Shown here: positions 6,390-44,011 of the stretch, in pieces
How the letters are laid out: every line of letters starts with the position of its first letter
Position numbering within the stretch: position 1 is the first letter of the stretch
The notes under the pieces: generated by a model
The model's database searches: none
Told to the model about the DNA's origin: nothing
Seen by the model: only the letters and a program-made list of their open reading frames with translations
Origin: Luteirhabdus pelagi
GTDB taxonomy: Bacteria; Bacteroidota; Bacteroidia; Flavobacteriales; Flavobacteriaceae
Length of the DNA stretch: 64,000 nt
Assembly: GCF_016827595.1 (NCBI RefSeq)
Contig: NZ_JAECMS010000001.1
Location: forward strand, 496,001-560,000
Reading direction: 5' to 3'
Translations under genes and position numbers: made by a program

Positions 6390-6755
6390 TTAATCGCTTT
6401 CCTTAACTTTTTTTATGGGATCCTCGGGATGAATATCGGTGAAGAGAATACGGTTCCATTTACGAAGACGGCGTGTTAGGGAAATATATCGAACAATTCC
6501 GACTGCCAAAAACACGACACATGCAAAAAGGGCTATGTAGCCTAACCAGCGAATGCTTCTAAAGTCTTCTAGACCCAAAAGTGCCAGTCCGCCCAACAAT
6601 AGATAAAGGGATGCCCGAACATAGGCTAAAAACGTTCGTTCGTTTGCCAATTTTGTCCGTTCCAAAGCCAAAATCTCCCGAGCATTGACCGGAAGTGGCT
6701 TGGTTCGAAGGTATTTAAATAGTTTTTGTGCTGGTCGTCGAATGGTGTCTTTCAA
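6390..6755 (-). CDS. DUF202 (YidH-like) small membrane protein, TTG start
   Basis: A 121-residue protein with the DUF202 signature ERTKLANERTFLAYVRASL, followed by two membrane helices (LYLLLGGLALLGLE and LGYIALFACVVFLAVGIV). The frame has no ATG anywhere: upstream it runs into TGA at 6782-6780, and the only initiator before the conserved core is TTG at 6755. DUF202 proteins are inner-membrane proteins of unknown role, some fused to phosphate-related SPX domains in eukaryotes. Confidence 0.82.
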   Translation of the reverse strand: MKDTIRRPAQKLFKYLRTKPLPVNAREILALERTKLANERTFLAYVRASLYLLLGGLALLGLEDFRSIRWLGYIALFACVVFLAVGIVRYISLTRRLRKWNRILFTDIHPEDPIKKVKESD

Positions 6756-6869
6756 AATAGTGACGCATTGATGAAACGTTCACTAAGGTAGTAAAAATAG
6801 AGGGTAGGTGCAATGAACGATTCTTTAAAGAAATGAAAAATCAATTAATATCACTCCCCGCTTTAATGA

Positions 6870-7451
6870 TTAGTAATACTCAAAAACCTCTTCTACTTCA
6901 ATTATTTCGTAGTTATAAACCTGATTTTCCTCATCGTAAGATGTCGGGTGCCTTCTAGAATACCTCCTCACCAATTTATCATCTACAATTTCGAATATGG
7001 CAATAAACTCATCCCCAAACAAATAACTATTATTATACTCAGGATATCTTTCAATTCTAAAGGTATTTTCGTCTAACATTTTAAATGACGCGTAGAAATT
7101 AATCCCTACACCTTCTTCATCACAATAATATTCTTGAATATAGTCTGGATTGTTTGGGTGTGAAGTAGACAATGTAACCGATAGAAAGCTTAATTGATAG
7201 TGTATGCTATTATCATGTAACAACTTAAATGAGGTATTTCCTAAACATTCAAATTCTTCTATCATATCCGTCGAGGAAACACCATCTAAATTAAAATCGA
7301 ATTCCATTGGAAGGTTAAAATGCACTCTTTTCCATTCTTTATTCATCAAAAAGGAGAAGTCGTACTCTTGAGAGTCTTCAGAATTCGGAGAACATGAAAA
7401 AAGTAATAAAAATGGTATTAAGAAAAGGTTATTCAGTCTTCTAACTTTCAT
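6870..7451 (-). CDS. Hypothetical lipoprotein
   Basis: A 193-residue protein with a type II signal peptide: MKVRRLNNLFLIPFLLLFSC, with the lipidated Cys at residue 20 followed by SPNSEDS. The mature part is rich in acidic and aromatic residues, has two Cys in the first half, and is probably an all-beta domain. I recognise no family. It is more AT-rich than its neighbours, which fits a fast-evolving accessory lipoprotein. It lies 31 bp downstream of the CBS-like gene on the same strand. Confidence 0.7.
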   Translation of the reverse strand: MKVRRLNNLFLIPFLLLFSCSPNSEDSQEYDFSFLMNKEWKRVHFNLPMEFDFNLDGVSSTDMIEEFECLGNTSFKLLHDNSIHYQLSFLSVTLSTSHPNNPDYIQEYYCDEEGVGINFYASFKMLDENTFRIERYPEYNNSYLFGDEFIAIFEIVDDKLVRRYSRRHPTSYDEENQVYNYEIIEVEEVFEYY

Positions 7452-7482
7452 TATAGTTCACTTAAGCATTCATTACAACTCA

Positions 7483-8460
7483 CTATATAAACCCCTGCTG
7501 CTTCATCCACTCATCGTTGTAGATCTTGGCCACATACCGACTACCATGATCGTGAAACAAAACAACGATTACATCATCTTCATTAAAATGTTCCTTCAAC
7601 TGGTGAACACCTTTCATGGCAGCACCGGCGGAGTTTCCTAAGAACATCCCTTCTTCTTGTGCCAATTTACGCGTCCATAGCGCCGCTTCTTTATCGGTGA
7701 CCTTGGTAAACCCGTCGATAATATCAAAATTCACGTTCTCGGGAAGAATATCCTCACCGATGCCCTCAGTGATATAGGGATAGATTTCATTTTCGTCAAA
7801 CTCCCCTGTTTCATGGTATTTCTTGAACACGCTACCATAGGTATCGATTCCCCAAACTTTCACGTTAGGGTTTTGTTCCTTTAAGTATTTCCCCACTCCA
7901 CTGATGGTTCCACCGGTACCCACACCTACTACAAAATGTGTGATTTTTCCATCGGTCTGTTCCCAGATTTCAGGACCTGTACTTTCGTAATGCGCTTTGG
8001 TATTGCTGGGGTTATCATATTGATTTACATACCAACTATTGGGTGTTTCTTCCGCCAGTCGTTTGGAGGTACTGTAATACGACTGTGGATCGTCTGGCGC
8101 CACATCGGTTGGACAAACGATAACTTTACTTCCCACGGCACGAAGGATATCCATTTTCTCTTTGGATTGCTTATCGCTAATTACGCAGATCATTTTGTAG
8201 CCTTTTACGATAGCGGCTAGTGCCAATCCCATTCCGGTATTTCCGCTAGTACCTTCAATGATGGTTCCGCCAGGCTTCAATCGACCATCGGCTTCGGCAT
8301 CCTCTATCATCTTAAGTGCCATCCGATCCTTTACCGAATTACCAGGGTTGAAAGTCTCATATTTGGCAAGGACTTTTCCGGGGATGCCCTCTGCCAGTTT
8401 ATTGATTTGCACCAAAGGGGTATTGCCTATGGTTTCCAGTATGTTTTTTGCGTATTTCAT
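7483..8460 (-). CDS. PLP-dependent cysteine synthase / cystathionine beta-synthase-like enzyme
   Basis: A 325-residue fold-type II PLP enzyme. The PLP lysine lies in NPGNSVKDRMALKMI near the N-terminus, the substrate loop is GTSGNTGMGLALAA, and the phosphate-binding loop is GVGTGGTISGVGKYL. The segment TEGIGEDILPENVNFDIIDG and the end (FHDHGSRYVAKIYNDEWMKQ) resemble the catalytic core of cystathionine beta-synthase more than CysK. There is no C-terminal CBS (Bateman) pair. The reaction is either O-acetylserine plus sulfide or serine plus homocysteine; sequence alone does not decide. The ATG at 8460 is chosen because the family starts with MKYAKNILETIGNTPL; an ORF from 8481 adds seven unsupported residues. 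Confidence 0.88.
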   Translation of the reverse strand: MKYAKNILETIGNTPLVQINKLAEGIPGKVLAKYETFNPGNSVKDRMALKMIEDAEADGRLKPGGTIIEGTSGNTGMGLALAAIVKGYKMICVISDKQSKEKMDILRAVGSKVIVCPTDVAPDDPQSYYSTSKRLAEETPNSWYVNQYDNPSNTKAHYESTGPEIWEQTDGKITHFVVGVGTGGTISGVGKYLKEQNPNVKVWGIDTYGSVFKKYHETGEFDENEIYPYITEGIGEDILPENVNFDIIDGFTKVTDKEAALWTRKLAQEEGMFLGNSAGAAMKGVHQLKEHFNEDDVIVVLFHDHGSRYVAKIYNDEWMKQQGFI

Positions 8461-8648
8461 GGCGTGTTTTTGCAGCGGCAAATGTACGTAATTTTAAAGG
8501 AAATGTAGAAGTCTAGAACAGGGTTTCCTCCTTCCCCTTATCCTTCAATTTTCTGATACATAAACAGCTACGGAGATATCGGAAAATATATGCCATCACA
8601 TCACTATTGCATAGGTTGAAAATCTTCCTAATTGTGATAATTGTCATA

Positions 8649-8677
8649 TCTCCAGCTGAAATTGGAGACTACTTTTG
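8649..8677 (+). promoter_or_regulatory. Putative promoter and inverted repeat upstream of ompW-like gene
   Basis: TACTTTTG at 8670-8677 is an exact Bacteroidota -7 box (TAnnTTTG), 41 bp before the ATG at 8719. No good -33 TTTG is found at 19-22 bp. The expected -33 region is instead occupied by an inverted repeat, TCTCCA (8649-8654) with TGGAGA (8663-8668), which could be an activator site. The rest of the 8461-8718 gap shows nothing I can name. Confidence 0.4.
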
Positions 8678-8718
8678 CAAGTGTTAAAAACACTATTAAC
8701 CATTCTAAATATAGTATT

Positions 8719-9372
8719 ATGAAAAAAGTGATTTTTGGATTATTCCTTTCATTCGTGATTCCGTTCAGTGCCATGAGCCAAGACAACGAGGCAGCTGCTT
8801 CCAACGAATTTTCTCCTTGGCAATTTCGATTGCGTGGTGTAGTTGTTACGCCAGACGAAAGTGCAACGATTGATGTTATTGGTGGCGACGCCGAAATTTC
8901 TACCACTGTCATCCCTGAATTGGACATTACCTATTTCTTCACCGAAAACATCGCTGCCGAATTAATTTTAGGTACTACCAAGCATGATGTAACAGCCATT
9001 GATACCGCTGTAGGCGATATTGATTTAGGCTCCATTTGGTTGCTGCCACCTACTTTAACCGCTCAATATCACTTTACTGGCGGCAATTTGAAGCCTTATG
9101 TTGGGGCTGGTATAAACTATACTATTTTTTGGGGTGCCGATGAGGGACCTGTAGCAGACGAGGTAAGTTATGATAACAACATAGGTTTTGCTCTTCAAGG
9201 AGGATTGGACTACAGCTTCAACGACCATTGGTTTATCAATGCTGATGTGAAAAAACTATTTCTCAGCACCGATGCTACTGTAGATGCTACGACAGCTCTA
9301 GGAGCAACCGTTGGGGCCGAAGTAGACATCAATCCGTGGCTTATCGGTTTAGGGGTTGGCTATCGCTTATAA
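8719..9372 (+). CDS. ompW: OmpW family outer-membrane beta-barrel protein
   Basis: A 217-residue protein with a cleavable signal peptide (MKKVIFGLFLSFVIPFSAMS, cleaved before QDNEAAA). The body follows the eight-stranded OmpW pattern: WQFRLRGVVVTPDESA, YFFTENIAAELILGTT, LLPPTLTAQYHF, LKPYVGAGINYTIFW, and a final aromatic-free strand GLGVGYRL. OmpW barrels pass small hydrophobic compounds through the outer membrane. The reading frame extends upstream to 8641, but the signal peptide fixes the ATG at 8719. Confidence 0.88.
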   Translation: MKKVIFGLFLSFVIPFSAMSQDNEAAASNEFSPWQFRLRGVVVTPDESATIDVIGGDAEISTTVIPELDITYFFTENIAAELILGTTKHDVTAIDTAVGDIDLGSIWLLPPTLTAQYHFTGGNLKPYVGAGINYTIFWGADEGPVADEVSYDNNIGFALQGGLDYSFNDHWFINADVKKLFLSTDATVDATTALGATVGAEVDINPWLIGLGVGYRL

Positions 9373-30943: not shown

Positions 30944-32434
30944 CTATTTTTTCTTTCGTTTTAAAATGGTTTGTATCAATTCCCGTATTCCCACTTTCTT
31001 ATCTAATTGATAAAGTGAAAATATGATCGAAATTAGTACGACTATACTAAGCCCAACATATCGGTAAAGCACGTTTTCCACAAATGTTAGCGAAAAAGCG
31101 ATACCACATAATAGCAGCCCGGCGATAAAGATAGCATAGAATTCCGATTTAAGCCGAAAGCCATACAGTGAGTTGGTTAACATCCAAATCGCTACAAAGT
31201 GAATGATAAAATACAGAAAATAGCTAATCCCCAAACCTTCCAACCCCCAATAAGAATAGCCCGCAACGTTCATAGCTACTAACACTATATTAAACACAAT
31301 CGCGGTGGTGATAAAAACCTTAGAGTCGCCCTTAGCTATAATGATGTACCCCATGGAAAAGGAAACGGCCTTAAACATCATTCCTAATATCCCCCATGCT
31401 ACGAATTGTACCGTCGGACTAAACTCTTGGGAATAGAGCAACGTAATGAAAAAGGGAGCAAAGGCTACGAATATTACTACTATTGGTAGCATCAAAAGAA
31501 TGGCTACAAAGGCTTGTTCGAATACGATGTCCTTCACCTTTTCCAACGAATCGATGACGCCCGATAAACGAGGAAAATAGTCGGTAGCCATAGCGTTGAA
31601 TACCAGCCCCACGTAGGTGTTCAGAATTACGACTCCAGCATTATAAAAGCCTACCTCATCTACCCCACCTGTATTGCTGATGTAGATTTGAACAGCATAG
31701 GCAGCAATTAAACTAATGATACCGCTTACGCTTAAGGTTATTCCCAATCGGATCATTTCCTTTCCTTCCGAAAAGGTCTGTTTGTTCGTTAAGCGATCGG
31801 TTTTTCGTAATTCAATTTTCCGTTGAAAGAAAGATGTTACAAAAAAGGTAACGATAGCCGCTATGATGATGGCGGGTACTATTCCTTCAATTCCGAAAAA
31901 GTAATAGAGTGGAATAGTAGTTACCAATCCGAAAAGACTTCCCAAAACATTGGCTTTCGCCAACGAACGCAATTTCTGAAGCCCTTGTAAAATAGCAAGG
32001 TTTGAATTTGCGAGTTGCTTGAAAAGCAATGCGATTGAAATCCAGATAAAAGCAAAAGTATAATCGGAATTCCCAAAGGCAAGTTCACTCAGCAAGGGAG
32101 AGGTCAGTCCCATGAGCAAGGCTCCCCCAAGTCCCGTAAACCAAACCAAGCGCTGTAGCACACGAACCGTTCTTATCGTTTTATCTGTGCTATCATTATT
32201 CTTTGCATAGGAAATATCCTTTACGGCACTTCGATTCAATCCTAAATTAGTAGCAGCATCTACTAGATTTAAGGTGGTGTTTAATAGACTAGCGATTCCC
32301 ATACCAGTAGGTCCGATAAGCAACGCGATAATTTTGGACCGCACTATTGAAATAAGGATGGTAATAACCTGCACACCTCCAAATAGTGAGGTGGCCTTCA
32401 CAACATGCCGAAATGCATTTTTTTGCGGTTCCAT
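30944..32434 (-). CDS. Wzx-type oligosaccharide flippase (MOP superfamily), copy 1
   Basis: A 496-residue integral membrane protein with 12-14 helices: KATSLFGGVQVITILISIVR, KIIALLIGPTGMGIASLLNT, IISLIAAYAVQIYISNTGG, FYNAGVVILNTYVGLVF, and YRYVGLSIVVLISIIFSLYQ. The pattern is that of O-antigen/lipid-oligosaccharide flippases, which move undecaprenyl-PP-linked oligosaccharide across the inner membrane. The ATG at 32434 lies 2 bp after the second flippase gene. Confidence 0.85.
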   Translation of the reverse strand: MEPQKNAFRHVVKATSLFGGVQVITILISIVRSKIIALLIGPTGMGIASLLNTTLNLVDAATNLGLNRSAVKDISYAKNNDSTDKTIRTVRVLQRLVWFTGLGGALLMGLTSPLLSELAFGNSDYTFAFIWISIALLFKQLANSNLAILQGLQKLRSLAKANVLGSLFGLVTTIPLYYFFGIEGIVPAIIIAAIVTFFVTSFFQRKIELRKTDRLTNKQTFSEGKEMIRLGITLSVSGIISLIAAYAVQIYISNTGGVDEVGFYNAGVVILNTYVGLVFNAMATDYFPRLSGVIDSLEKVKDIVFEQAFVAILLMLPIVVIFVAFAPFFITLLYSQEFSPTVQFVAWGILGMMFKAVSFSMGYIIIAKGDSKVFITTAIVFNIVLVAMNVAGYSYWGLEGLGISYFLYFIIHFVAIWMLTNSLYGFRLKSEFYAIFIAGLLLCGIAFSLTFVENVLYRYVGLSIVVLISIIFSLYQLDKKVGIRELIQTILKRKKK

Positions 32435-32436
32435 GG

Positions 32437-33744
32437 TCAGTGTTCGGTTAGTTGTTCGGTTGAAGACTGAGGCTGTTGGGAGAAGTAGCGTATTACGAGA
32501 AAAAGCACTAAAAAGAAATATAAGATATAGCGAATAAAATGGGCAATCACTACACCTTCCACCTCATAAGGATCGACAAGCCAATAGGCCAATCCATAAA
32601 AGACCGCTGCAGAAAACACTTCAACAAAAACGAAATTTCGTACTAATTTCTTGGCGATTAATTGATGAAGCAGTACCAATGCCATCAATTTTACAAAGTC
32701 GCCCAATAATTGCCATTTAAACAATGGTGCCATTTCATCGAAATCGATAAAGATATACTCGATAAACTGGAAACGAAGGAAATAAATAACGATCATTCCA
32801 AAGGCAAAAAGCGGTAGCAAGGTCTTATAGATAACACTCAATTCCCTTAAAAAGTTTTGTTTGGTATGAATACCCACAAATTTAGGGATAACATACAATG
32901 TGAAAAGAGCTCCGCTGAAGACCATATAATTTTTGGAAAGCGTCGTCATTCCCGTCCAAATTCCAGCGTCTTCTTCGCTTAATCGTTCCGCTAGCAAATT
33001 ACGAAGATCCAATTCTACATAATTCACTAAAACAGTTGAAGAAAACGACATTAATGCAAAGGCCAAAAGCGATCGCCCGTAGGGAATTTTCCATTTAATT
33101 TCAGAAAACACCACATATTCGCGCATCACCTTTAAGAAGATAAATAGCAATACCAACACCTGAACAATCGGGATACAGGCAATGGCAACGAGCGCACCGT
33201 CAATTCCGTATTTGTATAACATGTATAGGGTAAGCGCTGCACCTAGTAAATAGGCAATAATTTCAATTTTGGCGAATTTCTTATAGGCTGAAAGTCCGTT
33301 TACGATTCCATTAAATACTCGTTGAATAGAAATGAACGGAACCACTACCGCCACGATTTTTATCACGTATGCAAATTCAGTATCGTAAAAGAAATAGACG
33401 CTTATCGGTTCAGACCAAAAAAATAGCACCAAAAAGCAAAAAAGACTGCCTAAAATGTTAAAGACGAAGGTTGTTGAAAACAACTTCTGAAGTTCGTGCC
33501 GGTTTTTCTTGTGCTCGGCTACATACTTTACAATCCCGTTGAATACCCCAAACGATGTAATAGAGGTTAGCATTTGCAGAAGGTTCCGCAAGGAACCAAC
33601 CTTCGCGTATCCTGCCTTACCAACAATATCGGTCAATTCGCGCTGCAGAAAAAAAGCGACGAGTAAACGCAAAAGGATTACAGACGCGTTGAGCGACGTA
33701 ATTTTCAACAGTAAATTGTCGCGTATAAGCTTAGGTAGTTTCAA
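32437..33744 (-). CDS. Wzx/WzxE-like flippase, copy 2, TTG start
   Basis: A 435-residue integral membrane protein. The stretch LLQMLTSITSFGVFNGIVKY then VAEHKKNRHELQKLFSTTF closely follows the WzxE pattern of the enterobacterial common antigen flippase. Further helices include FNILGSLFCFLVLFFW, LLAFALMSFSSTVLVNYVEL and YILYFFLVLFLVIRYF. The initiator is TTG at 33744, directly after the TGA of the aminotransferase gene, and no ATG occurs before residue 58. An aminotransferase followed by WzxE is also the order in the E. coli wec cluster. Confidence 0.82.
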   Translation of the reverse strand: MKLPKLIRDNLLLKITSLNASVILLRLLVAFFLQRELTDIVGKAGYAKVGSLRNLLQMLTSITSFGVFNGIVKYVAEHKKNRHELQKLFSTTFVFNILGSLFCFLVLFFWSEPISVYFFYDTEFAYVIKIVAVVVPFISIQRVFNGIVNGLSAYKKFAKIEIIAYLLGAALTLYMLYKYGIDGALVAIACIPIVQVLVLLFIFLKVMREYVVFSEIKWKIPYGRSLLAFALMSFSSTVLVNYVELDLRNLLAERLSEEDAGIWTGMTTLSKNYMVFSGALFTLYVIPKFVGIHTKQNFLRELSVIYKTLLPLFAFGMIVIYFLRFQFIEYIFIDFDEMAPLFKWQLLGDFVKLMALVLLHQLIAKKLVRNFVFVEVFSAAVFYGLAYWLVDPYEVEGVVIAHFIRYILYFFLVLFLVIRYFSQQPQSSTEQLTEH

Positions 33745-35899: not shown

Positions 35900-37219
35900 T
35901 TGACAATTAAAAATGTTTGTTTGAGATTTAGTTTTATATCGTATCGCCCACTCCCAAAAGTTGAAAAGCGGATACTACTTGCTATCCTAATTATAGTTAG
36001 TATTGGTTTGCTATTGAATCCTCCCATTTTTTCACCGGCTAGCTATAGTTTTACGGGCGCCTCCATCGTTCGCTATCCGGTATACGTAATTTTCATGAAG
36101 GTTTTGGAGGTACTCTTTGGACAGAATTTGGGTATCGCCACCGTTATCATTCAATCATTATTCGGAATGGTGACCCTATATTTCTTCTACCTAAAACTGA
36201 ATCATGTTATCAGAATACCGCTATGGCTTCGAATTATAGTTGGAATACTACTTTTCGTTCCCTATTTCCCTCCATTTCTCATCGCGCATAATATTGCGTC
36301 GGAAGGATTGGCGTATCCCCTGTATCTTTGGATGCTTTATTACACCATCAATACCTTCTGGCTTCGCAAGTCGCAGCATCTAATCTATTTTGGCATAGCC
36401 TTTTTAGGATTAGTGCTTACCAGGGGGCAGTTTGTTATTATAGCTCCAATACTTGCCGTAATCTATCTTATCTGGCAAAGAAAGAAAGATGGTGTAAGGA
36501 AAAAACTCTTTACCTGTGCCATCTTATTTAGCTTACCTTTTCTAGCTATTACATTAGATGCTACCTTTAAGAAAATGGTATATGGCCTTTTCACTACTTC
36601 TCCCTACACCTTTGTTAATGCCGTTGCTATGCCATTATTTCTTTCAAATTGGGACGATAGAACTGCAATAAAGAACAGCGACGATCGGGCTATTTTTGAG
36701 GAATCCTATCGCTTTATTGATAGTCTCGACTTGTTAGCAAGCAAAGTAAGGCAAGGGCCGCAAGCCCAATATCAATTGTTTCATGATAATTTTCCTAGAA
36801 TATGCAATCAAAATATTCATGATTACGGAAAACGCTATTATCGTCAGCAAGGATTTGAGTTGGGACCTGAATTCATCAAAATTGAGAATACTTGCAAGAA
36901 TTTATATTTTATTCTCGTGGGCGAAAATTGGAAGCAGTATCTCGTCTTATATACCACTGGGTTATCGTATGGCTTTGGCTCCTACTGGATTTGTCTATTG
37001 GCATTTATTCTTTTTGGATATACCGTTGTTGTTTTCCTAAAAAATCCAACAGATGAAAATGCCCTTTTGTTTTTCTTTGCTACCCTGGTAATGTCGAACG
37101 CTTTGGTAACCGCATTTGCTTGTCATAGCATACAACGCTATTTATTCTACAACTATTTCATAGAATGTTTGCTTCTATTTCTAATTGGTAAAAAGATATA
37201 TTTGCGCTATGCATCCTGA
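35900..37219 (+). CDS. Polytopic GT-C-like membrane glycosyltransferase, TTG start
   Basis: A 439-residue protein with about ten membrane helices (for example ILLAILIIVSIGLLLNPP, LWLRIIVGILLFVPYFPP, APILAVIYLIWQR, GSYWICLLAFILFGYTVVVF) and a soluble loop of about 100 residues between them (DDRTAIKNSDDRAIFEESYR). The hydrophobic pattern with IASEGLAYPLYLWML and LTRGQFVIIAPI resembles GT39/GT83-type enzymes that use polyprenyl-phosphate sugars. No named family is certain. The frame has TTG at 35900 and 35922 before the first helix, no ATG. It overlaps the GT2 gene behind it by 11 bp. Confidence 0.65.
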   Translation: MTIKNVCLRFSFISYRPLPKVEKRILLAILIIVSIGLLLNPPIFSPASYSFTGASIVRYPVYVIFMKVLEVLFGQNLGIATVIIQSLFGMVTLYFFYLKLNHVIRIPLWLRIIVGILLFVPYFPPFLIAHNIASEGLAYPLYLWMLYYTINTFWLRKSQHLIYFGIAFLGLVLTRGQFVIIAPILAVIYLIWQRKKDGVRKKLFTCAILFSLPFLAITLDATFKKMVYGLFTTSPYTFVNAVAMPLFLSNWDDRTAIKNSDDRAIFEESYRFIDSLDLLASKVRQGPQAQYQLFHDNFPRICNQNIHDYGKRYYRQQGFELGPEFIKIENTCKNLYFILVGENWKQYLVLYTTGLSYGFGSYWICLLAFILFGYTVVVFLKNPTDENALLFFFATLVMSNALVTAFACHSIQRYLFYNYFIECLLLFLIGKKIYLRYAS

Positions 37220-38360
37220 AGTATCCGTCGTAATGCCGTGTCTGAATGAAGCCGAAACTTTGGCTGTTTGTATCAAGAAAGCCCAAGGTTTTTTTGAAAG
37301 GGAGCATATTGAAGGTGAAGTCATAATTGCTGATAATGGTAGTACAGATGGCTCCCAGGATATTGCACGAAAATTAGGCGCTACGGTACAGCCTGTCTCG
37401 GAAAAAGGATACGGAAATGCCCTGAAAGGTGGAATAGCTGCTGCCAATGGCACTTATATAATGATGGGTGATGCCGACGATAGCTACGATTTCTCGAATA
37501 TGATGTCGTATGTCGAAAAACTTCGAGAAGGGTATGACTTGGTTATGGGAAACCGTTTTAAGGGTGGTATAGAAAAAGGAGCTATGCCGTTTCTTCATAA
37601 ATACCTAGGTAATCCAGTACTCTCCTTTATCGGACGCTTATTTTTTAGATTGAAAATAGGCGACTTCCACTGTGGGCTTCGCGGATTTAGTAAGGAAGCC
37701 TACAACCGAATGGAGTTGCGTACAAGCGGAATGGAATTCGCCAGTGAAATGGTCGTAAAAGCAGGTTTGAAGAATATGAAAATTGCCGAAGTGCCCACAA
37801 CCCTATCAAAAGATGGGCGGTCGCGTCCTCCCCATTTAAATACGTGGAAAGATGGCTGGCGACATTTGCGTTTTTTGCTTTTATACAGTCCAAAATGGCT
37901 GTTCTTATTGCCTGGAGCGGTTGCTATGAGTGTCGGACTTATTTTTTCATTCATTCTATTTTTCGGACCGTTGACGCTTTTTGGTGTTACATTCGATGTG
38001 CACACATTACTCTTCTCGACGGGATTGTGGCTGACCGGTTTTCAGTTAGTGTTGTTTTATGGACTAACGAAGGTATATACGGTAGAAAATGATTTGCTTC
38101 CAAAATCGAAAAAATATGACCGCCTTTTCAAAATACTGAATCTAGAAAAAGGGTTATTGCTCGGTGGCTTCTTAATTCTTATTGGTATTATGCTCGCCTT
38201 GATCGCTTTCTTCAACTGGAAAGAACTCAATTTCGGAAATATTGAAAACCATGTTACCATGCGAATGGCTATTGGGGCGGTAACTGCAATTCTCTTCGGT
38301 GTACAGACAGCGCTGTTTAGTCTGTTTTTTAGCGTACTTGGGTTGAAAAAAGCCCATTAG
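37209..38360 (+). CDS. GT2 polyprenyl-phosphate sugar synthase (DPM/GtrB-like)
   Basis: A 383-residue protein. Its catalytic domain reads EVSVVMPCLNEAETLAVCIK, VIIADNGSTDGSQDIA, YIMMGDADDSYDF (DxD), and CGLRGFSKEAYNRMEL; the last 150 residues have four membrane helices (LFLLPGAVAMSVGLIFSFIL and others). This is the layout of enzymes that charge undecaprenyl phosphate with glucose or mannose on the cytoplasmic side. The ATG at 37209 overlaps the GT-C-like gene by 11 bp; the GT-C would then use the product outside. Its TAG is the first base group of a heptamer repeat. Confidence 0.85.
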   Translation: MHPEVSVVMPCLNEAETLAVCIKKAQGFFEREHIEGEVIIADNGSTDGSQDIARKLGATVQPVSEKGYGNALKGGIAAANGTYIMMGDADDSYDFSNMMSYVEKLREGYDLVMGNRFKGGIEKGAMPFLHKYLGNPVLSFIGRLFFRLKIGDFHCGLRGFSKEAYNRMELRTSGMEFASEMVVKAGLKNMKIAEVPTTLSKDGRSRPPHLNTWKDGWRHLRFLLLYSPKWLFLLPGAVAMSVGLIFSFILFFGPLTLFGVTFDVHTLLFSTGLWLTGFQLVLFYGLTKVYTVENDLLPKSKKYDRLFKILNLEKGLLLGGFLILIGIMLALIAFFNWKELNFGNIENHVTMRMAIGAVTAILFGVQTALFSLFFSVLGLKKAH

Positions 38361-38811: not shown

Positions 38812-39522
38812 ATGTACGAATTTACTATCATCGTTCCCGTGTATAATGAAGAGGAAAATCTCGAAAGGGTTGAGAAAGAATTACTTTCCTATATTGAAAA
38901 AGCCCCTAAAACGACAGCCATTCTCTTTGTGAACGATGGCTCGAGCGATAACAGTCAGCAGCTGATTGAAACCATCTGCCAGCGACAAGAACACTTTCAG
39001 TTTATATCCTTTGTTGAAAACCGTGGCCTTAGTGCTGCCATTAAAGCTGGATTCGACACGGTGACTTCTCCATTAGTTGGGTATATCGATAGCGATTTAC
39101 AGACACATCCAGAAGATTTCAACTTATTGCTAGAACACATAGGGGAATACGATTTGGTAACGGGTGTACGTGCCGATAGAAAAGATTCGTTTGTAAAGAA
39201 TATGTCTTCAAAAATAGCGAATGGTATTCGTAGAGCATTCACACATGACGGCATGGACGATACCGGCTGTCCGTTGAAGGTTATTAAAACCGAATATGCA
39301 AAACGAATTCCTATGTTCACGGGACTTCATCGTTTTTTACCCGCCATGATTCTTCTTCAGAATGGAAAAATAGTGCAAATTCCGATTCGCCATTTCCCCA
39401 GAACGGCGGGAACCGCAAAGTATCATTTGTGGAACCGACTTTTTGGTCCGTTGGTCGATTGCTTCGCATACTTATGGATGAAAAAGAAATACATCAATTA
39501 CGAAATTGAGAAAAAAGGATGA
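38812..39522 (+). CDS. ArnC-like GT2, undecaprenyl-phosphate glycosyltransferase
   Basis: A 236-residue GT2 enzyme: MYEFTIIVPVYNEEENLERV, ILFVNDGSSDNSQQLIE, RGLSAAIKAGFDTV, VGYIDSDLQTHPEDF (DxD), TGCPLKVIKTEYAKRIPMFT, and IRHFPRTAGTAKYHLWNR, the positively charged C-terminal pattern of ArnC/GtrB relatives. Unlike ArnC it has no C-terminal membrane helices, only a basic tail. The likely reaction is transfer of a sugar to undecaprenyl phosphate on the cytoplasmic face. Its TGA overlaps the next ATG (ATGA). First gene of a three-gene unit. Confidence 0.85.
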   Translation: MYEFTIIVPVYNEEENLERVEKELLSYIEKAPKTTAILFVNDGSSDNSQQLIETICQRQEHFQFISFVENRGLSAAIKAGFDTVTSPLVGYIDSDLQTHPEDFNLLLEHIGEYDLVTGVRADRKDSFVKNMSSKIANGIRRAFTHDGMDDTGCPLKVIKTEYAKRIPMFTGLHRFLPAMILLQNGKIVQIPIRHFPRTAGTAKYHLWNRLFGPLVDCFAYLWMKKKYINYEIEKKG

Positions 39523-40157
39523 TTGAGCAGTTAAGCTATATCACCCTCATCGGATTTTTAGGGCAAGGACTCTTTTTCTCGCGCTTTTTGGTACAATGGC
39601 TCCTCTCTGAAAAACACAAAAAGGTTATCACCCCTTCCGTTTTTTGGAAACTTAGCCTGCTAGCCTCCATTATTTTCTTCATTTATGGTTATCTGCGCGA
39701 AGATTTTGCCATCATGCTCGGCCAATCCCTTACCTATTTCATATACATCCGAAACCTTCAGCTACAGGGCGAATGGCAAAAGATGCATCGCGTTTTTCAA
39801 TGGTTGTTCTTTGCCTTTCCATTGTTCATCGTAATTTATTCCTATAACAATGGTGAGTACGATTTACAGCAATTCTTTAGCAGCAACAATATTGCACCTT
39901 GGTTATTAGTATTGGGGATTGTTTCGCAACTCGTTTTTATCTTTCGATTCGTTTTTCAATGGTTGGTGAGCGAACGCAGCAAAACGTCGCAACTCCCCTT
40001 GGGTTTTTGGGCCATTAGCCTTACAGGATCCGTATTGATTCTATTGTATTCCATTTTCCGTCAGGATATTGTGCTATTTTCGGCTCATAGCGTCGGAATG
40101 ATTGTGTATATTAGAAACATAATAATCTGGAGAAAAGAACGTCGCACCCATGCGTAA
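39519..40157 (+). CDS. Seven-helix protein with two LAB_N domains (SWEET-like layout)
   Basis: A 212-residue integral membrane protein made of two lipid-A-biosynthesis N-terminal (LAB_N) domains. Repeat 1 (about residues 10-80) has SRFLVQWLLSEKHK, VFWKLSLLAS and LTYFIYIRNL; repeat 2 (about 130-201) has FRFVFQWLVSERSK, GFWAISLTGS and VGMIVYIRNI. Each repeat supplies three helices and a seventh helix (QWLFFAFPLFIVIYSY) links them, so the layout is 3+1+3. It has no LpxB catalytic part. The start overlaps the ArnC-like stop by 4 bp and the end overlaps the ArnT-like start by 8 bp. A transport role for a lipid-linked sugar is inference. Confidence 0.82.
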   Translation: MIEQLSYITLIGFLGQGLFFSRFLVQWLLSEKHKKVITPSVFWKLSLLASIIFFIYGYLREDFAIMLGQSLTYFIYIRNLQLQGEWQKMHRVFQWLFFAFPLFIVIYSYNNGEYDLQQFFSSNNIAPWLLVLGIVSQLVFIFRFVFQWLVSERSKTSQLPLGFWAISLTGSVLILLYSIFRQDIVLFSAHSVGMIVYIRNIIIWRKERRTHA

Positions 40158-41775
40158 ATACCAATATTTCATCTTATTGGCCTTTACCTGCCTGACTGTT
40201 TATTTTTCGAACCTCAATATGTTACCCGTGAACATCATGGAGGCGCGAAATTTTATCACGGCTCGGGAAATGGTAGACGATGGCAACTGGCTACTCACTA
40301 CCCTTAATGGCGAACCACGCTACGAAAAACCACCATTACCAACTTGGCTTACCGCTATTTCAGGAATGGTATTCGGTTTCGACAACCAAGCCGGTTTACG
40401 ACTCCCTGCTTCGCTTATAACTGTAGTGCTACTATTGCTATTCTATAAACTTTCGGAACGCATTACGAAGGATATGGAAGTTGGCCTTATCGCTTCACTC
40501 GTACTAGCGACCTCCTTTTATATGGTGTTTGCGGGTAGAAACGGTCAATGGGACATCTTCACCCATGGGTTTATGATGATCGGCATCTATTTTCTCTATA
40601 AACTCTTCACCCAAAAAACAAAACACTACTCCTTTGCCCTTTTGGCTGGATTAGGGATTGGCGCTTCGTTTATGAGTAAGGGCCCTGTTTCCTTTTACGC
40701 CTTATTGCTACCGTTTTTAATTGCTTATGGTTTGGTGTTGAAAGGAAAGGAAATCCGAAATCGGATTGGTCCGCTGTTAGTTGTCTTATTCGTAAGCGTC
40801 ATTGTTTCAGGTTGGTGGTATGGGTATGTGTATTGGAAAGATGCGGAGCATTTACTTGCTATTACTGGTGAAGAGACCGAAAATTGGACCAGCTATAACA
40901 TTCGTCCTTTTTATTACTATTGGAGCTTTTTCACCCAGAGCGGCATCTGGACGATTCCTGCCTTCATCAGTTTGTTGTATCCCTATTTGAAGGATAGGGT
41001 GACGAACAAAAAAGCCTACACCTTTAGTTTACTTTGGACCGTGGCTTCGGTGGTGTTGCTTTCAATTATTCCAGAGAAGAAATCGCGCTATCTATTGCCT
41101 GTTTTAATTCCATTGGCATTGAATATTTCTTTCTATATTCAGTATTTGATTCACAATTTCAAGGACATTCGGTCAACACTTGAAAAGATTCCTGTCTACC
41201 TTCACTTCGGCTTGGTAGGGTTAATAGGTATCATTTTCTCCTTTGGCGGCTATCTATACCTACAGGAGAAGGTGGATGGTTTTTGGGTGTGGTATTGTTT
41301 ACTCGCTATTGCGCTATTGGGATTTGGTATTTTTATACTGAAGAATTTGTTTCAGAAGAATATCCGTTGGGCGTTTTATTATACGGTTCTTTTCGTTTGT
41401 TCGATATTGATTTTCGGATTACCGATGACAAATACGCTTCTTCATAATGAAAACTACCAATCCATTTCAGCATTGAAGGAAACGGCTCCCGTGAAGGACC
41501 TCAACATTTATGAATACAATGAGTTCTCACCTGAAATTGTATGGAATTACAAAGCACCTACGCCAGTATTGAAATCGAAGGAAAAATTAGAACTACCTTC
41601 GGAAGAAACCTTTGGTGTTTTAGTTCGAGATCAGGCATTAGAAAATTTTGAACAGGATTTTCAAGGTTTTTCAGTCAAAAAACTTGGTGAAGTAGACATG
41701 AACTCTGCAAGTCCCGGAAGCCGTTCGCATCGTAAGCGGTTAGTCCGAACGTTGTATAAAATCTCTAGAAAATAA
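40150..41775 (+). CDS. ArnT/GT39-like lipid-linked sugar transferase
   Basis: A 541-residue GT-C enzyme with about a dozen membrane helices. The first periplasmic loop has the ArnT/PMT pattern: VNIMEARNFITAREMVDDGN, WLLTTLNGEPRYEKPPLPTW, then FDNQAGLRLPASLITV. Later features are SFMSKGPVSFYALLLPFLIA and IPEKKSRYLLPVLIPLALNI. The C-terminal soluble domain is small. Such enzymes use undecaprenyl-phosphate sugars to decorate lipid A or proteins in the periplasm. The start overlaps the LAB_N gene by 8 bp. It ends back to back with the convergent PAP2 gene. Confidence 0.87.
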   Translation: MRKYQYFILLAFTCLTVYFSNLNMLPVNIMEARNFITAREMVDDGNWLLTTLNGEPRYEKPPLPTWLTAISGMVFGFDNQAGLRLPASLITVVLLLLFYKLSERITKDMEVGLIASLVLATSFYMVFAGRNGQWDIFTHGFMMIGIYFLYKLFTQKTKHYSFALLAGLGIGASFMSKGPVSFYALLLPFLIAYGLVLKGKEIRNRIGPLLVVLFVSVIVSGWWYGYVYWKDAEHLLAITGEETENWTSYNIRPFYYYWSFFTQSGIWTIPAFISLLYPYLKDRVTNKKAYTFSLLWTVASVVLLSIIPEKKSRYLLPVLIPLALNISFYIQYLIHNFKDIRSTLEKIPVYLHFGLVGLIGIIFSFGGYLYLQEKVDGFWVWYCLLAIALLGFGIFILKNLFQKNIRWAFYYTVLFVCSILIFGLPMTNTLLHNENYQSISALKETAPVKDLNIYEYNEFSPEIVWNYKAPTPVLKSKEKLELPSEETFGVLVRDQALENFEQDFQGFSVKKLGEVDMNSASPGSRSHRKRLVRTLYKISRK

Positions 41776-42339
41776 TTAGGCCCACTTTCGATTGGCCCAT
41801 CGCTGAAGTCCGTAGGCACCCCATCCAATCCAAGCTCCGAAAAACATCCCGGTAATAATATCCAACGGATAGTGAACTCCCAGATAAATCCTACTGTAGG
41901 CTGTTCCGATTGCCCAAACTAATAGTAAAAAGGGAAGATAATAATACCGTTTACGCAATAATAGCCCCATAAATACTGCTGCAGCCATGCTACTAGCTGC
42001 GTGGGCCGAAAAATAACCATAACGTCCGCAGCGTTCTGCAACAAAGCGCATTTGATCTTGTAGTGCTTCTACCTGACACGGACGTGGACGCTCGAAACCG
42101 TGCTTAAAAAGGTTTGAAAGCTGATCGGTGGCGGTAATCATTAGCGCAGCAGCAACCAAGATGATCCCTGTTGCTTTCCAACCGTATTCGCGATAGATTA
42201 AAAATAGCATGAGCGCATACAGTGGAATTGACGACCACTTTTCGGTGACGAAGTTCCAAAACCCGTCCCATGAGGTATTTCCCAATCCGTTTAGGAACAA
42301 AAATAATTCGGTGTCATATTCCAGCAGCTGATCAATCAT
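41776..42339 (-). CDS. PAP2-family membrane phosphatase
   Basis: A 187-residue membrane phosphatase with all three PAP2 motifs: KHGFERPRP (motif 1), FSAHAASSMAAA (motif 2, His general acid), and SRIYLGVHYPLDII (motif 3, nucleophile His). About five helices. PAP2 enzymes dephosphorylate undecaprenyl-PP, lipid A or phosphatidate; the position facing the ArnT-like gene favours lipid A or Und-PP, as inference. The ATG overlaps the end of the small acidic protein gene by 8 bp. Confidence 0.88.
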   Translation of the reverse strand: MIDQLLEYDTELFLFLNGLGNTSWDGFWNFVTEKWSSIPLYALMLFLIYREYGWKATGIILVAAALMITATDQLSNLFKHGFERPRPCQVEALQDQMRFVAERCGRYGYFSAHAASSMAAAVFMGLLLRKRYYYLPFLLLVWAIGTAYSRIYLGVHYPLDIITGMFFGAWIGWGAYGLQRWANRKWA

Positions 42340-42610: not shown

Positions 42611-44011
42611 TTATGTCAATGCCGAATCCTTTACAATAAGCCGGTTCGACAATTTGTTGAAACGAATAAACAGCAAAACGCCCGAAGCAGTTAGTCCCGC
42701 CAAAAGTCCAATCCAAATACCACTGCTGCCATACTCTTCATGCATACTCAGGTAATAGGAAATCGGAAAACCGATGGCCCAGTAGGCTATAAATGTTATG
42801 ACCGTTGGAATTTTCACATCTTGCATACCTCGCAAGGCACCTAAGGCTACCACTTGAAGCGTATCCGAAATCTGGAAAATAGCTGAAATCAATAATAATT
42901 GGGCTGCAATTGTCGCCACTTCCAGGTTATCCAATCGTTCTGCCACATTATCGTAATCCAAATACAGTTTCGGAAGAGCATCCTTAAAAATTACAAACAA
43001 TAGGGCGAAAACAACAGCCAGCAATATTGAAAGGAGAAATATTGAAAACGCGATTCGCCTTAATTCTCGAAATCGCTGCAATCCTTTTTGATTTCCCACC
43101 CGAATCATTGCAACCACACTAAACCCCGTTGCCACCATAAAAGTCATGGAAGAAAGGTTGAGCGCAATCTGATTGGCCGCTTGTGGGTTCTTTCCCAAAA
43201 TTCCCGACAACCAAATGGCTGCAGTAAAGATTCCGACTTCAAAAAACATCTGTAGGGCTGAAGGCATGCCCAGGTTCATCAACTTCTTGAGTTCTGTTTT
43301 GGCAAGCTCGAAGAACTTTATATTGAGTACAAATGGTCTCGATTTCTTCTTCCGACTGAGCATATACCACAGATAGGCCACCATAACCACTCTCGATGCC
43401 AACGTTCCGATGGCTGCCCCTACGATTCCAAGTTGGGGCATCCCCCATTTTCCGAAGATGAAGATATAGTTCAGAAAAACATTTACTATGTTCGCAACGA
43501 TGGTTGCATACATGGGATATCGCGTAAGAGAAAGTCCATCGCTAAATTGCTTAAATGCCTGAAAAACGATCATCGGCAAAAGAGACACAGCAACCAAGTT
43601 TAGGTATGGCATTGCAAGCGCCACAACTTCTGGCGGTTGGTTCATAGCGTACATCAAGGGTTTACCGGCAAATACTAAAGCGACTAAAAGAATTCCGAGT
43701 ACCGTACATAAAAAAAGGCCGTGTTTAAAGGCCGATTTTCCCTTGGTAAAGCTTCCTTCCCCATCTGCCTCGGCGACTAGCGGTGTAATCGCAGTAGAAA
43801 AACCAATCCCGAAAGACATCGCAATAAACATAAAGCTATTCCCAAGCGATACCGCGGCAAGTTCAGCGGTACCTAATTGCCCAACCATAATGTTATCGAC
43901 CAAAGCCACAACAGTATGCCCGAGCATGCCGAGGATAACCGGCATAGCAAGGTGTACATTATAGCGGAACTCTTTGGTGTATTGCTGCAGCACTGCGAAA
44001 AATTTTGGCAA
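42611..44011 (-). CDS. MATE family multidrug exporter (NorM-like)
   Basis: A 466-residue exporter with 12 membrane helices in two MatE halves: MPVILGMLGHTVVALVDNIM and VGQLGTAELAAVSLGNSFMF mark the first, GMPSALQMFFEVGIFTAAIW the second. It expels cationic drugs in exchange for Na+ or H+. The upstream initiator is TTG at 44011; GTG at 43993 would also fit the family N-terminus, so the start is uncertain. Confidence 0.87.
   Translation of the reverse strand: MPKFFAVLQQYTKEFRYNVHLAMPVILGMLGHTVVALVDNIMVGQLGTAELAAVSLGNSFMFIAMSFGIGFSTAITPLVAEADGEGSFTKGKSAFKHGLFLCTVLGILLVALVFAGKPLMYAMNQPPEVVALAMPYLNLVAVSLLPMIVFQAFKQFSDGLSLTRYPMYATIVANIVNVFLNYIFIFGKWGMPQLGIVGAAIGTLASRVVMVAYLWYMLSRKKKSRPFVLNIKFFELAKTELKKLMNLGMPSALQMFFEVGIFTAAIWLSGILGKNPQAANQIALNLSSMTFMVATGFSVVAMIRVGNQKGLQRFRELRRIAFSIFLLSILLAVVFALLFVIFKDALPKLYLDYDNVAERLDNLEVATIAAQLLLISAIFQISDTLQVVALGALRGMQDVKIPTVITFIAYWAIGFPISYYLSMHEEYGSSGIWIGLLAGLTASGVLLFIRFNKLSNRLIVKDSALT

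Follow-up and report, generated by a model that had tools for sequence, protein, structure and literature searches.

A tandem LAB_N protein encoded between two glycosyltransferases as a candidate flippase for undecaprenyl-phosphate-linked sugars

Introduction

What does a small membrane protein do when its gene is wedged between one glycosyltransferase expected to load a sugar onto undecaprenyl phosphate (Und-P) and another expected to use that sugar on the far side of the membrane? The question is raised by three overlapping genes in the window, the whole 64,000-nucleotide stretch of Luteirhabdus pelagi DNA analyzed here. Direct evidence on flippases of monosaccharide-P-polyprenols is thin, and in the literature within our scope, which did not extend to preprints and most subscription papers, we found none on the function of LAB_N, PF07578 or COG3952 that gives a flippase role, the one relevant study being the 2012 PQ-loop analysis discussed below. 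We propose, with a probability of roughly two in three, that the genes at 38812–41775 form a three-component extracytoplasmic glycosylation system in which a PQ-loop-superfamily protein is the likely Und-P-sugar flippase.

Results

A duplicated membrane protein between two glycosyltransferases

The features of the locus, numbered from the first position of the window, are as follows.

38812–39522, plus strand: GT2 glycosyltransferase of the DPM1/ArnC polyprenyl-phosphate type, without transmembrane (TM) segments, 236 amino acids (aa; PF00535, 92.6 bits)
39519–40157, plus strand: tandem LAB_N protein, candidate Und-P-sugar flippase, 212 aa, predicted 3+1+3 TM helices
39549–39761, plus strand: LAB_N repeat 1, residues 11–81
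39789–39848, plus strand: linker helix TM4, residues 91–110
39912–40121, plus strand: LAB_N repeat 2, residues 132–201
40150–41775, plus strand: GT-C glycosyltransferase of the PMT_2/PMT type, remote relative of ArnT, 541 aa (PMT_2, 68.5 bits)
41776–42339, minus strand: PAP2 phosphatase, conserved neighbor outside the module
42611–44011, minus strand: MATE-family transporter, conserved neighbor, rejected as the flippase

The middle protein of the trio is the sole LAB_N protein detected in the genome. Pfam LAB_N (PF07578) matches it twice, scoring 185.2 bits where 26.7 is the cut-off, and the separate copies score 103.9 and 92.9 bits in a profile search of the genome. The copies are 36% identical (E = 7e-17), and the two internal repeats of about 71 residues described in an initial annotation of this DNA are confirmed as LAB_N domains. 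Invariant residues are Q16, R22, Q26, E31, P39, W43, D62, Q69 and N79 in repeat 1 and Q137, R143, Q147, W148, P160, W164, D183, R199 and N200 in repeat 2. Two AlphaFold2 models (pLDDT 87.9 and 86.4) both consist of seven long helices, in the first of them at residues 2–33, 40–59 and 63–82, then 91–110, then 127–154, 161–181 and 184–211, bearing out as a prediction the 3+1+3 arrangement proposed earlier; the positive-inside rule places the N terminus outside and the C terminus inside. LAB_N was the only match in a Pfam scan of this protein, which gave none to SMR or EamA, and the ArnE/F models did not match it in a scan of curated models. No LAB_N match was found in phage records, and there is thus no link to phage seroconversion.

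The overlaps that the initial annotation had reported with the flanking genes, 4 bp between the GT2 end (39522) and the LAB_N start (39519) and 8 bp between the LAB_N end (40157) and the GT-C start (40150), agree with the coordinates. Its description of these neighbors as ArnC-like and ArnT-like is apt loosely, at the family level, but both score far under the equivalog cut-offs: the GT2 reaches 106.6 bits on the ArnC model PRK10714 (cut-off 529) and the GT-C 89.7 bits on the curated ArnT equivalog (cut-off 567). The GT-C residues E31, K60-P61, D135, K177-G178, K310 and Y314 are invariant with E. coli ArnT. Judging by its family and closest models, the GT2 would load Und-P with sugar at the cytoplasmic face, and the GT-C is predicted to pass that sugar on at the periplasmic face. 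Hydropathy revealed no TM segment in the window's GT2, and the same is true of all 109 LAB-linked GT2s scored and of all nine GT2s from plasmid records. TM helices are present, by contrast, in ArnC and in the GT2 belonging to the TIGR00374 cassette described below.

Upstream of the trio, at 35900–38360, a 439-aa hydrophobic protein without a Pfam match overlaps an AglJ-like GT2 (391 aa, with TM helices). This GT-C-like/AglJ-like pair was rejected as part of the module, since it was seen in 1 of 80 loci; kept only in a congener, it is possibly another lipid-linked sugar module. Also within the window, two adjoining Wzx-like, polysaccharide transporter-like genes (30944–33744) lie in a surface polysaccharide cluster.

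Gene order and co-inheritance

In a first set of 32 Bacteroidota loci, the GT2 lies upstream of LAB_N in 30 and the GT-C lies downstream or is fused in 30. Conservation of the neighbors, which had been put forward as a check on the initial reading, extends to 80 further named loci: the GT2 adjoins LAB_N upstream in 79 of the 79 that are assessable, most often with a 4-bp overlap (52 loci), and a GT-C is adjacent in 76 of 79, or in 78 of 79 if those up to three genes away are counted, the exception being a locus of Gillisia marina (L157). Among 60 relatives, LAB_N, a close GT2 (defined by E < 1e-100) and the GT-C are present in exactly the same 19, although linkage between the genes and shared ancestry of the genomes mean that these are not independent events. 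We regard it as very probable that LAB_N belongs to the GT2/GT-C pathway. One locus counts against reading the trio as a flippase system: L061 (genome G146) has a tandem LAB_N with neither glycosyltransferase beside it, and the rest of that genome yielded no close GT2. A GH3-like protein follows LAB_N there.

Two variations on the cluster are of separate interest. In L123 and L153, one further GT2 and one further GT-C (about 6680–8890) lie between LAB_N and the usual GT-C, and a single LAB_N may serve two donors. Two-component systems adjoin the LAB_N clusters in L164, L166, L169, L181 and L183, which suggests regulated envelope modification.

Tandem, split and fused forms

In a tree comprising 10 single-copy LAB_N proteins and 44 copies each of the first and the second repeat, first repeats and second repeats each gather on one side of a branch (support 96/97 and 96/87), such that one ancient duplication explains the tandem set; with few columns, the finer branching is unsure. 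In Hymenobacter HDW8, the two halves occupy two adjacent ORFs, through either a genuine split or a nonsense mutation. In L059, tandem LAB_N and GT-C form one 753-aa protein (LAB_N 175.2 bits, PMT_2 93.0 bits). Among 27 matches in the Bacteroidota family to which L059 belongs, 12 have a frame of 748–784 aa, and in 12 of 12 fusion genomes (L059 and L191–L202) both parts align in a single frame with a GT2 alongside. As the fusion recurs in 12 genomes in a single frame beside a GT2, it is not an assembly error.

LAB_N in other phyla, donor sugar and acceptor

Outside the Bacteroidota, a single LAB_N of about 90–110 aa accompanies a GT2 and a GT39-type gene in nine of nine annotated plasmid records. 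These derive from Alphaproteobacteria and Fusobacteriota (Thalassospira, two Azospirillum, three Paracoccus, Pelagovum, Cetobacterium and Ilyobacter); for Pelagovum, the gene in place of GT39 encodes a protein that has no name but is as large as a GT-C. The order varies between GT2-LAB-GT39, LAB-GT39-GT2-epimerase and, in Phocaeicola, GTC-GT2-LAB-epimerase. A UDP-glucose dehydrogenase (UGD) and/or a UDP-sugar epimerase is part of the LAB_N cluster in Cetobacterium, the three Paracoccus and Ilyobacter, and also in Phocaeicola, Hymenobacter, L057 and Paenibacillus. Curated models give these epimerases no precise name; by their sequence signature, we take them to be probable UDP-GlcA 4-epimerases. 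In lineages with such neighbors, the sugar may be a uronic acid such as GalA. The window's genome has a UGD (G000:C22:397227-398519); no close UDP-GlcA 4-epimerase was found in it.

Lipid A, whose analysis the initial annotation had proposed as a check, is not the acceptor in general, since the GT2-LAB_N core is also present, in the order UGD-epimerase-GT2-LAB_N, in Paenibacillus, a Gram-positive bacterium that lacks lipid A. No GT-C was recognized alongside the Paenibacillus cluster.

A different cassette at the same chromosomal position

The order MeaB > GT2 > LAB > GT-C > PAP2 < MATE < recurs in 56 exact cases among the LAB loci, where MeaB is our label for what is presumably a GTPase-like gene conserved upstream. 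In four LAB_N-less relatives (L172, L173, L174 and L177), the same flanks hold a TM-bearing GT2, a PF03706/TIGR00374 protein and an inverted GT-C, except that MeaB is not adjacent in L173. The TIGR00374 "flippase-like" protein has 290 aa and is related to the MprF flippase domain. Whole glycosylation modules have thus been swapped at a fixed chromosomal position; as the entire cassette is exchanged, and not LAB_N alone, functional equivalence is supported rather than proven. Counting against the flippase reading, L175 (G182) has the alternative GT2 and GT-C, and the flippase-like gene between them is missing. In L171, a lone GT2 (6926–7645) that is 45% identical to the window's, perhaps a decaying remnant, is left where LAB_N and GT-C are gone. 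The PAP2 gene is retained where LAB and GT-C are lost and is therefore placed outside the module.

For ALTERNATIVES, searches of the genome gave no match to SMR (PF00893), ArnE (NF011625) or GtrA (PF04138), with controls positive in other genomes; as E. coli ArnE only just passes PF00893 and ArnF does not, a diverged SMR protein could be missed. The window itself holds Wzx-like and MATE-like proteins. The earlier suggestion that the LAB_N protein replaces ArnEF goes too far: the nearest substitution seen is by the TIGR00374 protein, within a wholly different cassette.

Relation to the SWEET/PQ-loop superfamily

A profile of 32 tandem LAB_N proteins aligns with 11 SemiSWEET-type proteins of the same phylum at 97.3% probability (hhalign, E = 2.8e-11) and with solved SemiSWEETs (PDB 4qnd) at E = 1.1e-4. 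Structural comparison is less clear-cut. The high-probability PDB matches in Foldseek are SWEET and SemiSWEET chains, yet the best E value is 0.09, and superposition of the tandem model on SWEET or SemiSWEET gives a global TM-score of 0.35–0.42 (rmsd 12–14 Å), where about 0.5 or more is the yardstick; single halves reach about 0.5–0.59. The AlphaFold2 models were built on thin alignments, and the second, from a deeper alignment, did not improve the superposition. Either the true packing differs or models from thin alignments are imprecise. Superfamily membership therefore rests on sequence profiles and topology.

At the level of residues, LAB_N lacks the PQ dipeptide, its proline being replaced while the glutamine does not vary (Q26/Q147). 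Halfway along TM1/TM5, LAB_N has an invariant arginine (R22/R143), opposite which the aligned SemiSWEET-type protein has a small residue. Pfam MtN3_slv (MtN3/SWEET) does not match the tandem protein, and the SemiSWEET_3 model scores 26.3 bits, below its cut-off of 100. Tandem LAB_N thus appears to be a distant relative of the PQ-loop/SWEET superfamily, clear by profile and weak by global fold. What survives of its description as SWEET-like is the profile relationship and the ranking of SWEET folds at the top of the structure search.

Discussion

How might such a protein work with its neighbors? We envision that the TM-less GT2 would move a sugar from its nucleotide donor onto Und-P at the cytoplasmic face and that tandem LAB_N would then admit the headgroup from the inner leaflet into a cavity formed where its two bundles of three helices meet, and there the membrane-embedded R22/R143 and Q26/Q147 would probably bind the phosphate. 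By alternating access, LAB_N could open to the periplasm, allowing the headgroup to cross to the periplasmic leaflet, and the GT-C would take the Und-P sugar as its donor. The single-copy LAB_N proteins of other phyla may act as SemiSWEET-like homodimers. Downhill movement along a concentration gradient might suffice, as has been suggested for ArnEF (PMC9574504). That LAB_N moves an Und-P sugar, as first proposed from the sequence, gains strong indirect support from synteny, the shared presence profile, the GT-C fusion, the single-copy counterparts in other phyla, the different, flippase-like protein that fills the LAB_N slot at the same locus and the lack of ArnE, SMR or GtrA matches; flipping itself we infer from these. 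The profile relation to SemiSWEET, the seven predicted helices and the UDP-GlcA enzymes encoded in the operons also speak for it.

Several other roles must be weighed against flipping. One is that LAB_N anchors the soluble GT2 to the membrane, or scaffolds it, and hands its product to the GT-C, with flipping carried out by the GT-C or another protein. The tight operon and the fusion fit a scaffold equally well, as does the lack of TM helices in every LAB-linked GT2 scored. Since DPM1 is similarly TM-less and requires DPM3/DPM2 for membrane targeting (PMC4281381), LAB_N may indeed dock the GT2 and pass on its product. However, a pure anchor has no need of a transporter fold in two copies, each with buried R, Q and N that do not vary, LAB_N is fused to the GT-C rather than to the GT2, and a flippase-like protein fills its slot in the alternative cassette. 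We consider anchoring in place of flipping unlikely; the two roles are compatible and not exclusive. It is also hardly credible that the neighboring MATE protein is the flippase and LAB_N an accessory. MATE is nearby in 59 of 80 loci, and MATE flippases are known from three-component systems (PMC11127046). Yet this gene is on the strand opposite to the trio, is missing from the annotated neighbors in other phyla and in Hymenobacter, and is found beside the unrelated TIGR00374 cassette as well as in L171, where it persists without LAB_N or GT-C; we therefore rejected it.

LAB_N could, as its Pfam name implies, act on lipid A itself, for example in LpxB-related handling. The chlamydial LpxB model NF002173 scores 80 bits over residues 9–210, model residues 11–221 of 610 align with the whole tandem, and this N-terminal position in LpxB does count against the flippase reading; in some contexts, such as LpxB, the domain may do something else. 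Nevertheless, Pfam and curated models place no LpxB enzyme domain in the 39519–40157 protein, which ends after LAB_N, and the pairing of GT2 and LAB_N with UDP-uronic acid enzymes in Gram-positive Paenibacillus makes action on lipid A itself very unlikely. The superfamily shared with SWEET and SemiSWEET would also be consistent with a permease for free or nucleotide sugars. Such a role is highly improbable given the absence of an MtN3/SWEET Pfam match, the loss of the PQ proline, the gain of a buried Arg and genomic ties to polyprenyl-phosphate enzymes rather than sugar catabolism. Flipping of an Und-P sugar remains our preferred reading.

Whether LAB_N proteins at large, in single, split, tandem and GT-C-fused form and across several phyla, are an unrecognized PQ-loop class of polyprenyl-phosphate-monosaccharide flippases and functional bacterial counterparts of MPDU1 is a wider proposition, to which we give even odds. 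If it is true, the "lipid A biosynthesis N-terminal" domain would become a flippase family in several phyla, and the range of forms lends itself to structural studies and transport assays. A 2012 analysis of PQ-loop proteins already judged annotations of the kind "lipid A biosynthesis" to be misleading.

Parts of the arrangement are familiar from other systems. In ArnC-ArnE/F-ArnT, a GT2, a small paired membrane protein and a GT-C also act together, and the two half-size units ArnE and ArnF make one transporter, where the tandem has its halves fused. However, ArnE/F belong to SMR/EamA and showed no relation to LAB_N in family scans, ArnC has TM helices and the sugar here need not be Ara4N. GtrA-GtrB-Gtr and other three-component systems likewise combine an Und-P-sugar synthase, a proposed flippase and a GT-C transferase (PMC11127046), although that account names GtrA, SMR and MATE proteins as flippases, including a MATE protein proposed to flip Und-P-Ribf (PMC11127046), rather than a PQ-loop-superfamily protein. 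In Rhizobium, the GT2 RgtE makes bactoprenyl-P-GalA for the GalA transferases RgtA-D,F (PMC7663294), reminiscent of the several LAB_N operons with UDP-sugar epimerases; the Rhizobium sugar is GalA, whereas the window's genome lacks a close UDP-GlcA 4-epimerase. The three-TM unit, duplicated with a linker helix, parallels the step from SemiSWEET to SWEET, but LAB_N differs in its replaced PQ proline, added buried Arg and predicted lipid-linked substrate. Chlamydial-type LpxB has an N-terminal LAB_N that aligns to the whole tandem, and only there is it joined to the LpxB enzyme domain.

Conceptually, the nearest parallel is the eukaryotic DPM1/DPM3-MPDU1-PMT/ALG/PIG pathway, in which a TM-less GT2, a seven-TM PQ-loop protein and GT-C acceptor enzymes likewise occur together (PMC3281891, PMC4281381), on dolichol there and undecaprenol here. 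MPDU1, identified in the 2012 analysis as a PQ-loop protein required for all monosaccharide-P-dolichol reactions, is a disease gene whose mechanism has been called unsolved (PMC4281381). By analogy, LAB_N with its GT2 and GT-C looks like a bacterial version of DPM1-MPDU1-GT-C and, if this is true, LAB_N would provide a small bacterial model for MPDU1.
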